Shown piece by piece: positions 3,958 to 46,233 of a DNA stretch of 64,000 nt (position 1 is the first letter of the stretch; each line of letters starts with the position of its first letter). The DNA is taken from positions 186,001 to 250,000 of the forward strand of contig NZ_FNAR01000001.1 in assembly GCF_900101985.1 (NCBI RefSeq), in the 5' to 3' direction. Below the pieces are notes generated by a model that ran no database searches, was not told the origin of the DNA, and worked only from the letters and a program-made list of their open reading frames with translations. The DNA is from Bhargavaea beijingensis. GTDB taxonomy: Bacteria > Bacillota > Bacilli > Bacillales_A > Planococcaceae. The position numbers and the translations under genes were made by a program.

Positions 3958-4350
3958 TTGGCACAAGTTCAATACATCGGCACTGGCCGCCGCAAGACTT
4001 CCGTTGCCCGCGTACGCCTCGTACCCGGCGAAGGCAAAGTCATCATCAACGGCCGTGACGCAGAAGATTACATTCCATTCGAAACACTCCGTGAAGTCAT
4101 CAAGCAACCGCTTGTAGCGACTGAAACTCTCGGCAGCTACGACGTTCTCGTCAACGTCAACGGCGGCGGCTACACTGGACAAGCCGGCGCAATCCGCCAC
4201 GGCGTTGCCCGTGCCCTGCTTCAGGTAGACCCTGACTTCCGCCCTGCGCTCAAATCCGCAGGTCTCCTCACACGTGACCCACGCATGAAGGAACGGAAGA
4301 AGTACGGCCTCAAAGGCGCGCGTCGTGCACCTCAATTCTCGAAGCGCTGA
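3958..4350 (+). CDS. rpsI: 30S ribosomal protein S9
   Basis: Small-subunit protein whose C-terminal tail reaches the P-site tRNA. The 130 residues begin with [20 protein letters not shown] and end in the conserved basic tail [10 protein letters not shown]. Translation starts at TTG (3958), preceded by AGAGGAGG. A terminator follows directly. In B. subtilis the next genes would be ybaJ-ybaK-cwlD; here unrelated genes follow for about 42 kb. Confidence 0.97.
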
Positions 4351-5645: not shown

Positions 5646-5675
5646 AAAGGGACCCATCCGCGGATGGGTCCCTTT
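5646..5675. terminator. Bidirectional terminator between the DMT gene and nos
   Basis: The arms AAAGGGACCCATCC and its complement form a nearly perfect hairpin. The gene on each strand ends at its edge; A and T tracts flank both sides. Confidence 0.85.
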
Positions 5676-6775
5676 CACAGTTCAGGAGGGTCCTGATAAA
5701 AATAGTTCGGAGTCAGCTTCTCATTGTTGTATGGCTTGTGGAAGATGTGCGTCGAAGCGGGAGACAGCGGCGGGATCAGCCAGGACCAGTTTCCGGTGAC
5801 AGGACGTCCGTGTTTCCGCTCATTTTCTTCGAACTTCCTGAACTGCTCGGCTGCCGTATGATGGTCGACCAGCGTGACGCCGGCCTGCTGGTACGAATGC
5901 AGCACGGCGATGTTCAGCTCGACGAGCGCGCGGTCGACCCAGAGCGACCTGCTCGAGGACGTATCCAGGCCGAACACATCCGCCACTGCCGGCAGAAGAT
6001 GATAACGTCCCTCATCCGCGAAGTTCCTCGCTCCGATCTCCGTGCCCATGTACCAGCCGTTAAACGGTGCCATCGGATACTCAATCCCGCCGATCTCAAG
6101 CAGCATATCCGAAATCATCGGGACGGCGTACCATTTCAGGCCAAGTTCGCCAAGTCCCTCATTGTCCGGATGGGTGATCGGCACTTCCATCACGGCATCG
6201 TCGGGAATCCCGAACAGCTCCGGTTCTTTTCCGTCTTCCCGGATGACGAGAGGGAGGACGTCAAACGGCGTGCCTTCCCCTTGCCAGCCGAGCTTCTCGC
6301 ACAGCCCGGTGAATTCAAGCGATGCGGGGTCGCCGGTCACCCCGTCGACAGCCTCGTACCCGGCATACCGGATCAGCTGATGGTTCAGGACGCGGAGCGG
6401 ATCGGCGCCGTTTTTCCTCGGAGGGAAAACGGTGATCGTGGAGCGGATTTTCCCGCCGTTCGTCGCGAATCGGATATGGTCAAGCAGTTGCCCATATGCT
6501 TCATCGGCGGTGCGCAGATGGCGGGCATCCACAACGTGAAGGGTATGCCAGAGCAGCCGTCCGATACAGCGGTTGCTGTTGCGCCACGCCATCCTTGCCC
6601 CATGGGTGAGTTCAGCGGATGTGTGGACATAGGTGCCGGTGGCTTCCACTTCCTCCCGGATTTCCCGGATCCGTTCTTCCTGCCGGTCCTCCGGGATTCC
6701 AAGCTCCGCGTAGCATTCCCTGATAAACTGTTCGGCTTTCATGATCAGTCGGTTGACCGTGGTCACTTGGTTCAT
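5675..6775 (-). CDS. nos: Bacterial nitric oxide synthase, oxygenase domain
   Basis: Heme enzyme oxidising L-arginine to citrulline and nitric oxide, borrowing electrons from cellular flavodoxin-type reductases because it has no reductase domain. The protein is 366 residues, very close to the Bacillus enzymes. The heme-thiolate cysteine lies in AWRNSNRCIGRL (about residue 70). The substrate-binding stretch is PFNGWYMGTEIGARN, with the arginine-binding glutamate in it. The C-terminal region reads NWSWLIPPLSP. I chose the ATG at 6775: GGAGG lies 10 bases before it and homologues start here, whereas the open frame upstream has no ribosome-binding site. In related bacteria NO from this enzyme protects against oxidative stress and antibiotics. 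Confidence 0.96.
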   Translation of the reverse strand: MNQVTTVNRLIMKAEQFIRECYAELGIPEDRQEERIREIREEVEATGTYVHTSAELTHGARMAWRNSNRCIGRLLWHTLHVVDARHLRTADEAYGQLLDHIRFATNGGKIRSTITVFPPRKNGADPLRVLNHQLIRYAGYEAVDGVTGDPASLEFTGLCEKLGWQGEGTPFDVLPLVIREDGKEPELFGIPDDAVMEVPITHPDNEGLGELGLKWYAVPMISDMLLEIGGIEYPMAPFNGWYMGTEIGARNFADEGRYHLLPAVADVFGLDTSSSRSLWVDRALVELNIAVLHSYQQAGVTLVDHHTAAEQFRKFEENERKHGRPVTGNWSWLIPPLSPASTHIFHKPYNNEKLTPNYFYQDPPEL

Positions 6776-6865
6776 TCGTCTCAACCTCCAGTACACAAAG
6801 TGTAGCATGGGCATCCGGTTAATCTTCGGTGAGACCGTGGAGGTTTGGTGAACGTTAACGGCAAA

Positions 6866-6895
6866 GAGCCTGCGTACCGGATTGCGGTACACAGG
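6866..6895 (-). terminator. Hairpin between the SET-domain gene and nos
   Basis: The arms GCCTGCGTACCG and CGGTACACAGGC pair with one mismatch. The T tract is weak on either strand, so it may be an attenuating or processing hairpin rather than a full terminator. Confidence 0.5.
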
Positions 6896-6913: not shown

Positions 6914-7306
6914 TCAGGCTTCAGGTTCTTCTTCCCGGTCAAACCACAATTTTTCCTGGTCATCCACATCTCCATTGTAGTTGATGAGGATCTCCTCGCC
7001 CGTTTTGATGGGTGTATGGGCATAGAAGTTGAACGTATGGTTCTCGAAGCTGATTTCATAGGTCGCATTCGGCTCGTACGAGTGGTTGAACAGCATCCCG
7101 TAGCCGAGAAGGATGGCGGTATGGTTGAGACCGTACTCGAACGCGTAGTCCGCCAAAAGCGTCTGTTCGATATGCTCATGCTGGTCATTCGGATAGGCGA
7201 TCACCGGTGCCTGATGGATCAGCGCACCCTTACGGATATCACACGTGGCAAATACCCCTCTGTTGAACTCCCCGTCGCTTAGTGTCGAAGTCTTGATTTC
7301 GATCAA
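6914..7306 (-). CDS. SET-domain protein
   Basis: Small protein of 130 residues that is almost entirely a SET domain, the fold of lysine methyltransferases and a few other SAM-binding proteins. Visible SET motifs are GVFATCDIRKG near residue 16, the NHSYEPNA motif near 75 (consensus NHSCxPN, here with tyrosine for cysteine) and GEEILINYNGD near 105. Its substrate in bacteria is not known. The frame opens with GTG at 7315, but AGGTGA lies 5 bases before a TTG at 7306, giving an N-terminus of MIEIKTS; I prefer that start. It lies upstream of nos on the same strand, 138 bases away. Confidence 0.8.
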   Translation of the reverse strand: MIEIKTSTLSDGEFNRGVFATCDIRKGALIHQAPVIAYPNDQHEHIEQTLLADYAFEYGLNHTAILLGYGMLFNHSYEPNATYEISFENHTFNFYAHTPIKTGEEILINYNGDVDDQEKLWFDREEEPEA

Positions 7307-7541
7307 ACAATTCACCTGCTCATTTCTGATTTGAATTCATACACGGATGGTCTATATAAACTAAGAATAGTCGTCGGTATTCCCTCAGTATACAGCAGAA
7401 TGGCGGGGAGCGTGTACCGGGGGGCTTTTGGTGACATCAAACGCGGTCGCCGGCCGGATGGTTGACGTTTCAGTCAGGGTTGTCAACGACTCACCAGGGA
7501 TCAGGCGGGCCGGAACTCTCGGACCCGCTTGCTGCCGCGAA
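7307..7541. other. Intergenic stretch upstream of the SET-domain gene
   Basis: No convincing gene. It should contain the promoter of the minus-strand SET-domain gene. A short inverted pair, TTGACG and TGTCAA, lies near 7463-7488. Confidence 0.5.
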
Positions 7542-7716
7542 GGTTTCCGCATTCACCGGTCCGGTTTCGTCATTCGTCACTCTGGTTTCGTCATTCATCC
7601 CGATCATTTCGTCATTCGACAACTCGCGGGGCGTGAATGACGAAACCGGGGACTCGAATGACGAAACTGCAGCACTGAATGACGAAACCGCGGCCTCCAA
7701 TGACGAAACCGCATTC
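7542..7716. repeat. Inverted array of eight 21-bp units (core TTTCGTCATTC)
   Basis: Four forward units start at 7542, 7563, 7584 and 7605; most read GGTTTCGTCATTC plus 8 variable bases. Four inverted units start at 7633, 7654, 7675 and 7696, carrying GAATGACGAAAC. Every step within each half is exactly 21 bases. The two halves face each other across 7 bases and could fold into a long imperfect hairpin. Reading frames through it on both strands encode only 7-residue periodic peptides (NDET or VSSF), so I treat it as DNA/RNA structure, not protein. A related array lies at 31501. Confidence 0.85.
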
Positions 7717-7723
7717 CGGAATT

Positions 7724-7757
7724 AAAGCGCATCACCCTCACGGGGGCGATGCGCTTT
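7724..7757 (-). terminator. Terminator downstream of ptsI
   Basis: The perfect arms AAAGCGCATC and GATGCGCTTT flank a GC-rich loop at the 3' end of the minus-strand ptsHI operon. Confidence 0.75.
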
Positions 7758-7759
7758 TC

Positions 7760-9472
7760 TTATAGGGACTCCTCAATATATGAACGGACTTCTTCGCCGG
7801 AGGAGAGGGACAGGATGTGGTCGATCTTCGCTTCCATCTCCGTCTTGGAAAGGCCGGCGATCTTTGCGCGTGCTTTCAGGATAGAGGAAGCGCTCATCGA
7901 GAATTCATCGAGGCCCATGCCGAGCAGGACCGGGATGGCGGCTTCGTCGCCTGCCATTTCGCCGCACATGCCGGCGTGCTTGCCTTCCCGGTGGGCGGCG
8001 TCGATGACCATCTTGATCAGGCGGAGGACTGCCGGACTGAACGGCTGGTACAGGTACGACAGCTGTTCGTTCATCCGGTCGGCGGCCATCGTGTACTGGA
8101 TCAGGTCGTTCGTGCCGATCGAGAAAAAGTCGACTTCTTTGGCGAACTGGTCTGCCATGAGCGCAGCGGACGGGATCTCGACCATCATGCCGATCTCGAT
8201 CCGGTCGCTGACGGGGACGCCGGCTTTTGCAAGCTGTTCTTTTTCATCCAGGCAGATGGCCTTGGCTCGGCGGAATTCGTCCAGAGTCGCAATCATCGGG
8301 AACATAATCTTCAGGTGCCCGTGTACACTTGCCCGGAGCAGGGCGCGAAGCTGGACGCGGAACATGTCTTCCTCTTGGAGGCACAGCCGGATGGCGCGGA
8401 TGCCGAGGAACGGGTTCGCCTCTACCGGGAGGTCCAGATAAGGCAGTTCCTTGTCGCCGCCGATGTCGAGTGTGCGGACGACCGTCGGGCGGCCTTCCAT
8501 CTGTTCCAGCACGCTTTTATACGCTTCGTACTGTTCGTCTTCAGTAGGTAACTGGTCGCGGCCCATATAGAGGAACTCCGTGCGGAACAGGCCGATGCCT
8601 TCTCCGCCGTTTTCCAACACCTTCGCGACATCTGCCGGTGAGCCGATGTTGCCAGCCAGTTCCACTTGGTGGCCGTCTTTGGAGCGGGTCGGCTCATGGA
8701 CCAACTGCGTGAGCTGTGCCTGCTCCTCCGCGTATAGGCGTCGCTTTTCTTCATAGGCTTTGAGCGTGGCGTCAGACGGGCTGACAATCACTTCGCCGGC
8801 TGTACCGTCGACGATGACCGTCATGCTGTTTTCAATCTGTGCCATTGCGGAGCGGCATCCGACGACCGCCGGAATCTCAAGCGTTCGTGCCAGGATGGCG
8901 GAGTGGGATGTGCGGCCGCCAATGTCGGTTACAAATCCCAGAATGTATTCCGGGTTCAGCTGGACGGTGTCGGACGGGGTCAGGTCCTCGGCGATGATGA
9001 CCGTCTGCTCGCGGATCATCGCGGGACTCTGGAGCGTCACGCCGAGCAGATGGGCCAGGATGCGCTGGGTGACATCCCGTACGTCGGCTGCCCGCTCTTT
9101 CATGTATGCATTGTCCATCGATTCGAACAGGGTGACAAAGCCGTCTGCGGTTATTTTCAGCGCATGTTCCGCATTCACCTTTTCCGAGCGGATTTTGTCC
9201 TTGACCGGCCCGATAAGTTCGGGGTCGTCAAGCACGAGCAAATGGGCGCTGAAGATCTCTGCTTCGCTTTCGCTCAACTGTTCGGATGCATGCTTTCGGA
9301 TGGTTTCAAGTTCTTCGCGGGAAGCCGCGATCGCCCGGTCCAGGCGTGCGCTTTCCGCTTCCGTGTCTGCGACAGTGACTTTTTCGGTTTGAAGGTCGGG
9401 ATGCTCCAGCCGGAAGGCCTTTGCAATGGCAATGCCTCCGGAAGCCGCAATCCCTTTGATCCGCTGTTCCAT
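7760..9472 (-). CDS. ptsI: Phosphoenolpyruvate-protein phosphotransferase (PTS enzyme I)
   Basis: General PTS component that takes phosphate from PEP and passes it to HPr. The 570 residues match the family. The active-site histidine is in [12 protein letters not shown] near residue 189. The PEP-binding region contains LFRTEFLYM and GTNDLIQYT, and the C-terminal signature is [10 protein letters not shown]. The start codon follows directly on the ptsH stop on the same strand, giving a ptsH-ptsI operon. This operon diverges from the fructose operon, an arrangement that differs from the usual ptsG-linked ptsHI of Bacillus. Confidence 0.97.
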
Positions 9473-31500: not shown

Positions 31501-31654
31501 GGTTTCGTCATTCCCCCCGGAAGTTTCGTCATTCGGTTGTCTGATTTCGTCATTCGCAGAGGGCGGGTCCACGAATGACGAAACTGGGGCCGTGAATGCT
31601 GAAACCGGAGTCTTAAACGATGAAACCGAGCCTGTGAATGCAGAAACCGCCGCA
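31501..31654. repeat. Second inverted array of 21-bp units (core TTTCGTCATTC)
   Basis: Three forward units start at 31501, 31522 and 31543, each with TTTCGTCATTC. Four inverted units start at 31571, 31592, 31613 and 31634; the first carries GAATGACGAAAC, and the others are more worn (GAATGCTGAAAC, AAACGATGAAAC, GAATGCAGAAAC). All internal steps are exactly 21 bases. A further degenerate GGTTTC lies at 31474. The array occupies the gap between the SDR operon and the phosphonate regulator and is the same family as the array at 7542. Confidence 0.85.
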
Positions 31655-46170: not shown

Positions 46171-46233
46171 TTGGTGATCTTTCGCGTGCTGTTGATGATC
46201 TTTCACCGCCCCTTATTGAACTTTCACCCCCAA
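46171..46233 (+). repeat. Three direct 21-bp units (core TGATCTTTC)
   Basis: Units start at 46171, 46192 and 46213, reading TTGGTGATCTTTC, TTGATGATCTTTC and TTATTGAACTTTC plus eight variable bases. The step is exactly 21 both times. It is intergenic between the rhodanese terminator and cwlD. The core differs from the arrays at 7542 and 31501, but phase and unit length are the same. Confidence 0.7.

Follow-up and report, generated by a model that had tools for sequence, protein, structure and literature searches.

Facing rows of 21-bp-spaced units behind Bhargavaea genes, probably an array of protein-binding sites

The stretch of DNA analysed here (the window, 64,000 nucleotides from Bhargavaea beijingensis) contains, between a putative SET-domain-like gene and ptsI, an array of short units that was noticed in a first-pass annotation; inspection of the letters finds the array at the coordinates given there, with cores 21 bp apart (Table 1). 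On the plus strand the reverse cores read TTTCGTCATT and the forward cores AATGACGAAA. The earlier description, of four reverse and four forward units repeated exactly over 21 bp, with 8-base spacers and 7 bases between the halves, needs amending: the four forward cores are exact, as are three of the reverse cores, the fourth having two mismatches; the repetition is limited to a core of 10-11 bp; the spacers likewise measure 10-11 bp; and the gap between the halves, measured between 10-mers, is 19 bp. Allowing at most one mismatch, AATGACGAAA has 19 matches in the window versus 6.05 +/- 2.8 in shuffled sequence, and 0 of 100 shuffles reached 19. The window's other array of this family is not present at the corresponding place in genomes G001 and G003, where the whole junction has been rebuilt. 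An open reading frame at 5675-6892 (minus strand) resembles bacterial nitric oxide synthase oxygenase by its AWRNSNRCIGRLLW motif, a putative assignment.

Table 1. Features of the two arrays, their surroundings and a third, short array, in window coordinates
Feature	Position	Strand	Basis or remark
SET-domain-like gene, putative, 5' end towards array	6914..7315	-	ORF; domain name from first-pass annotation
Outermost left-arm unit, degenerate core TTTCCGCATT, 2 mismatches	7544..7553	-	sequence
Left-arm core, exact (AATGACGAAA on minus strand)	7565..7574	-	motif search of window
Left-arm core, exact	7586..7595	-	motif search of window
Left-arm core adjoining centre, exact	7607..7616	-	motif search of window
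19-bp centre between facing arms	7617..7635		array collection and orthologue comparison
Right-arm core adjoining centre, exact	7636..7645	+	motif search of window
Right-arm core, exact	7657..7666	+	motif search of window
Right-arm core, exact	7678..7687	+	motif search of window
Outermost right-arm core, exact	7699..7708	+	motif search of window
Terminator-like hairpin between ptsI stop codon and array	7724..7757		good T-run on plus strand
ptsI, 3' end facing array	7760..9472	-	ORF and junction comparison
Second array, same family	31503..31646		3 reverse and 4 forward units, centre 19 bp
Short CGAAAGATCA array, other core family, 21-bp step	46175..46226	-	period search and motif search

The hairpin between ptsI and the array has a weak T-run on the sense strand of ptsI. 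When this junction is compared between species, an array is found to be kept in G001, G003, G006 and G007 and to be absent in G005. Past ptsI and the array, the position taken in the window by the SET-like gene is occupied in related species (loci L154, L155, L156 and L158) by a convergent gene that reads like a transporter of the MFS type; in G001 and G005 a YceI-like gene also lies directly after ptsI. Judging from these gene orders, the ptsI junction is a place of gene turnover.

Arrays of this kind recur throughout the 2.99-Mb genome, which has about 30 of them (retrieval of the listed places gave 30), a number that, like the other array counts given here, rests on pattern searches and retrieved stretches; a two-unit pattern has 129 matches genome-wide and its reversed control pattern 0. 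The collection assembled from six Bhargavaea species comprises 112 non-identical arrays, each with three or more units; three or four TTTCGTCATT units stand opposite three or four AATGACGAAA units, some arrays being one-armed. Units on the same strand follow one another at 21 bp in 507 of 514 steps, and in 85 of 94 arrays 19 bp separate the two arms; among the nine remaining centres, six measure 7-9 bp, that is, about one helical turn less. A 21-bp rule served to extend the collected arrays, but when the distances between neighbouring exact cores are tallied independently of that rule the histogram contains almost only 21, 42 and 63, and a scan for each period between 14 and 30 in the non-coding parts of the array loci yields arrays at 21 only. 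The core is neither confined to the places first noticed nor devoid of a conserved phase, the combination that the first-pass annotation had named as refuting its reading. The named relatives that share the core, its 3'-flanking bases and the facing arms are Bhargavaea: exact two-unit matches occur in 6 of 8 genomes placed in that genus and in none of the 53 genomes searched from outside it, of which 29 belong to the same family and 24 to other families, and no arrays were matched in the phages, plasmids and viral contigs searched.

Arrays were linked through flanking sequence into orthologous clusters, from which 420 homologous unit pairs (spacer identical at 4 or more of 7 positions) were compared; these pairs overlap in ancestry and are not 420 independent events. 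Core positions 0-3, 6, 7 and 9 differ in 1-4% of pairs, position 4 in 8%, position 5 in 16% and position 8 in 21%, while spacers differ in 28% and the centre in 31% of orthologous comparisons, the length of the centre being nevertheless fixed. Variants at position 8 are almost only A to G; this change, and C to T at position 5, recur in both arms when read in the sense of the core, and are uncompensated. Information content is near zero in mid-spacer, and the bases adjoining the core are variable. Near-fixation of positions 0-3, 6, 7 and 9, set against the variable positions 5 and 8, marks out (G)AATGnnGArA, usually in the form GAATGACGAAA, as what by this comparison is the selected word. More generally, the contrast at orthologous sites between 1-4% in the core (a value somewhat lowered inasmuch as detection favours intact cores) and 28% in the spacers indicates that the core is under purifying selection, selection on the core being one of the options (the core, its phase or a folded RNA) suggested in the first-pass annotation. 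Core-less units within arrays would appear as 42-bp steps, of which there are only 5 among the 514.

Tabulated against gene ends by means of our own simple gene caller, all 111 arrays having two neighbours are intergenic, 56 at convergent, 51 at codirectional and 4 at divergent junctions; placement is thus mostly at gene 3' ends, 107 of the 111 lying at convergent or unidirectional junctions. Set against the intergenic gaps of the window, Fisher p is 0.006 for divergent and 0.002 for convergent junctions; orthologous arrays are non-independent, and the cluster-weighted ratio of convergent to codirectional to divergent is 18.5 : 23.2 : 1.3. Element orientation is independent of the direction of transcription (10 : 8). 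Of 144 gene 3' sides, 97 have a terminator-like hairpin in the gap that separates the stop codon from the array (opposite-strand control, 50), and the array itself scores as a terminator on 6, in agreement with the earlier remark that it is not one.

On balance these patterns incline us to regard the array as two rows of sites, in phase with the helix, for a putative sequence-specific DNA-binding protein. The features that characterise a protein-binding site array, namely sequence-specific selection on a core and a fixed helical phase, are both found, and the binding array that figured among the first-pass suggestions gains further from the fact that cores vary singly and alike in both arms with no conservation of arm pairing. 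The element would act in cis as DNA, as two facing rows of 3-5 putative protein sites each. Its 21-bp spacing would correspond to exactly two helical turns and would bring every site in a row to the same side of the helix, the two rows facing one another across the fixed 19-bp centre. A putative sequence-specific protein would bind these sites, probably cooperatively, and so build up a nucleoprotein complex at the 3' ends of genes and beyond the transcription units. Such a complex would probably act as a chromosome-architecture or boundary element, or might insulate neighbouring transcription units, although any such role is speculative and is guessed from placement. The two-turn phase is read from the length of the step, which equals seven codons as well.

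This coincidence allows the array to be read instead as part of a repetitive protein gene, the arms of which would encode NDET heptads: in one frame the forward arm translates as NDETGDS NDETAAL NDETAAS NDETAFRN-stop, and the variable positions 5 and 8 are third codon positions of that frame. Position 2 is likewise a third position, however, and is nearly fixed (2%); moreover, stops in the NDE frame are undepleted (23 in 462 spacers), several off-steps are non-multiples of three (22, 23, 41 and 43), and the two arms would have to be read from opposite strands, each running away from the 19-bp centre. A fragment of a protein gene, which the first-pass annotation had recognised as a threat to its reading, is accordingly barely credible. 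That the paired arms of a structured RNA or DNA cruciform, i.e., the hairpin itself, are the object of selection is improbable too. On its plus strand the window array forms a much stronger fold than shuffled sequence does (z = -9.9), and arrays sit at gene 3' ends, but the folding signal arises from the inverted cores themselves, the pairing of opposed spacers is 0.383 versus 0.408 expected after orientation (z = -1.45), core variants are uncompensated in the other arm (Fisher p = 0.32 for position 8), terminators usually precede the array, orientation ignores transcription, and one-armed arrays have no partner arm. The structured non-coding RNA proposed earlier thus lacks support. Taken together, the lack of spacer pairing and of core covariation, the transcription-independent orientation and the undepleted stops make a selected hairpin or peptide unlikely. 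An initial apparent avoidance of opposed-spacer pairing (z = -5) was an artefact of shuffling without intrinsic orientation, and Rfam matches (mir-981 and others) lie far below gathering scores and reflect the inverted repeat. The 0A box, with the consensus TGNCGAA, offers another reading, in which the arrays titrate or position Spo0A. TGACGAA within the core fits this box as published (TGNCGAA; PMC7643835), and the Spo0A C-terminal domain is encoded in 12 of 12 genomes tested; yet the C of the box differs in 16% and its last A in 21% of orthologous pairs, the bases outside it (AA before, A after) are conserved equally to those inside, the further 21-bp families found in array-carrying genomes, such as CGAAAGATCA, do not fit it, and G002 has Spo0A and no arrays, all of which renders this proposal very unlikely. 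The first-pass exclusion of CRISPR stands: a CRISPR locus would have repeats of about 21-40 bp, unrelated spacers of much the same length between them, a single direction and cas genes, and here there are 10-11-bp cores, spacers that are homologous between arrays, and two facing arms at about 30 loci. A TIGR-Tas array, which needs a Tas protein with a Nop domain, is ruled out, since Nop (PF01798) has no match in G000, with positive controls.

More serious, though still rather unlikely, is a non-autonomous dispersed mobile element (MITE or REP-like), the facing rows of which would be multi-site transposase-binding ends and the core of which would be kept because copies losing it stop spreading. 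Arrays were oriented by iteration towards a common consensus, and with their own cluster left out 79 of 82 still prefer the assigned strand. Non-orthologous arrays hence share one oriented consensus, from which it follows that copies were once dispersed; the simplest reading is that the arrays descend from one element that dispersed and then diverged. In line with mobility, entire arrays are tandemly duplicated, about 190-230 bp apart (G006:C25:95093-95564; L205:2894-3291; L177:4099-4397), empty junctions exist, and placement avoids promoters, as expected of tolerated insertions. Against it, the core is kept at orthologous sites despite 28% spacer divergence, and spreading alone does not explain a conserved core there, so that mobile origin does not account for selection on copies that stayed in place. 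Furthermore, comparison of array edges reveals no separate terminal repeats beyond the units, similarity between arrays stopping about 3 nt past the outermost core (CCG); target-site duplication is unreadable at the compared junctions, which are too diverged or rebuilt; no transposase was recognised among the ORFs between paired arrays, read by eye; no recent array movement was found at the compared sites, many copies occupying orthologous sites in several species; and the phages, plasmids and viral contigs searched contain no copies. The mobile palindromic element envisaged in the first-pass annotation thus has partial support, from the dispersed, oriented copies. A mobile origin in the past is likely, and it is compatible with the binding-site reading. 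Adjacent units with identical spacers (e.g., G001:C22) indicate, for their part, that arrays grow through tandem duplication.

Among described repeats, the nearest kinds are STAR elements and CGTC-tagged REPs, and the array is a member of neither. STAR elements of Staphylococcus, for which no function is known, consist of a GC-rich 14-bp motif, T(G/A/T)TGTTG(G/T)GGCCC(C/A), whose copies are separated by 40 bp or more (PMC3532100). Like them, the Bhargavaea arrays lie between genes, repeat a short conserved motif directly with locus-specific spacers, are stable in position within a lineage while varying in unit number, and belong to the order Bacillales; unlike them, they have the motif AATGACGAAA (conserved word GAATGACGAAA), a fixed step of 21 bp in place of at least 40 bp of intervening sequence, and two facing rows about a centre of fixed length. 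CGTC-tagged REPs, including dRS3 of Neisseria, are palindromes with an 8-9-bp stem and a 4-5-nt loop, reported from five phyla with Firmicutes unmentioned (PMC3733652). Shared with these are a CGTCATTC-like sequence, a frequent head-to-head arrangement, the lack of a known dedicated transposase (PMC3733652), and an intergenic location that favours convergent or unidirectional junctions near 3' ends; by contrast, the sequence adjoining the Bhargavaea core is variable, and the unit therefore has no stem of its own. BIMEs, i.e., enterobacterial REP clusters, are also short elements, alternating or facing, behind genes, and are reported as binding sites for several proteins (PMC2817692); their units are palindromic REPs with no 21-bp phase, and the analogy concerns possible working rather than membership. 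TAACTGA heptamer arrays are likewise intergenic arrays of a short word, most repeats of the best-studied genome sitting just upstream of start codons (PMC4679880). AATGACG heptamer arrays have TGACGAA in common with the core and a period that divides 21, but in both heptamer kinds the 7-mers adjoin directly, with no variable spacer between them. In iterons and plasmid centromere arrays, a single protein binds cooperatively to direct repeats about 20 bp long that keep helical register, at one locus per replicon beside rep or par genes; the Bhargavaea arrays occupy about 30 chromosomal places without rep or par genes. The open-access papers searched yielded no description of 21-bp-phased arrays, and novelty is therefore provisional, subscription journals being largely uncovered. 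Whether dispersed short repeats such as STAR are selected or merely tolerated becomes testable through the Bhargavaea arrays: because a single 10-bp word and a step of two turns are seen to be selected in orthologous copies, a binding protein can be sought directly.

The same 21-bp step occurs in Bhargavaea with other words, namely CGAAAGATCA (G000, G006, G007), CGAAAGTACA (chiefly G003), CGAAAGACCA (G001, G003, G005) and GCSGNCGCGAA. At the L162 locus (4047-4169), where G000 and G006 have AATGACGAAA arrays, a GCSGNCGCGAA array lies at the same junction in G005, G001 and G007 (L304, L305 and L306), one such locus among two examined in detail. At this junction the GCSGNCGCGAA unit pairs at 21 bp number 10 in G005, 7 in G001 and 3 in G007 (shuffles, at most 1), and the arrays of G005 and G001 include some 18- or 16-bp steps. 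Since the array is absent or replaced by another core at some orthologous junctions, no single site is indispensable. Beyond the genus, in 200-kb samples of G110 and G188 (two other genera), non-coding 8-mer self-matches peak at lag 21, with 18 and 10 bins of 200 bp, respectively, no other lag between 14 and 30 exceeding 4 and 3, and the words at this step include GTGTCCYAATGTTT, GAATCGATC, GTTCTACTTTTC and AAGTGAGGAWTA. No 21-bp excess appears in 100-kb samples of G038 and G046 (two other families) and G013 (another genus of the same family), and the class is therefore not universal in Bacilli. It may be, and is put forward tentatively, that the 21-bp arrays constitute a class of their own among bacterial chromosome elements, hitherto undescribed and occurring in at least three Planococcaceae genera. 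Its architecture, namely a two-turn phase, a free spacer beside a conserved word and a position behind genes, would be fixed and the word exchangeable between lineages and orthologous loci, as if a family of binding proteins and their sites co-diversified. If so, one architecture with exchangeable words would provide a natural experiment on the joint evolution of DNA-binding proteins and the chromosomal sites they bind; it would also be a candidate chromosome-organising system of Gram-positive bacteria.

Several further repeats were observed. In a second Bhargavaea 21-bp family, CGAAAG(ATCA/TACA/ACCA), the last four bases vary by species; its places are the short array of Table 1 and, among others, G000:C28:15280, C26:11990 and C41:89061. 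G110 and G188, of the same family as Bhargavaea, have many intergenic 21-bp arrays with entirely different cores and several core families per genome (e.g., L268:8769, L270:5572, L274:18781 and L276:2976 in G110; L258:17201, L261:9744 and L262:5277 in G188). Kinship with 21-bp ATGACGAA arrays of Verrucomicrobia, Planctomycetes, Bacteroidota and Proteobacteria was considered and rejected, these being pattern-selected and consisting of heptamers, REP-like palindromes or coding repeats. Among the loci concerned (L041-L153), contiguous AATGACG heptamer arrays occur in many assemblies of Verrucomicrobia, Planctomycetes, Bacteroidota and Anaerolineae, and several Proteobacteria carry REP-like GCGGGAATGACGAA units at 21-bp steps.
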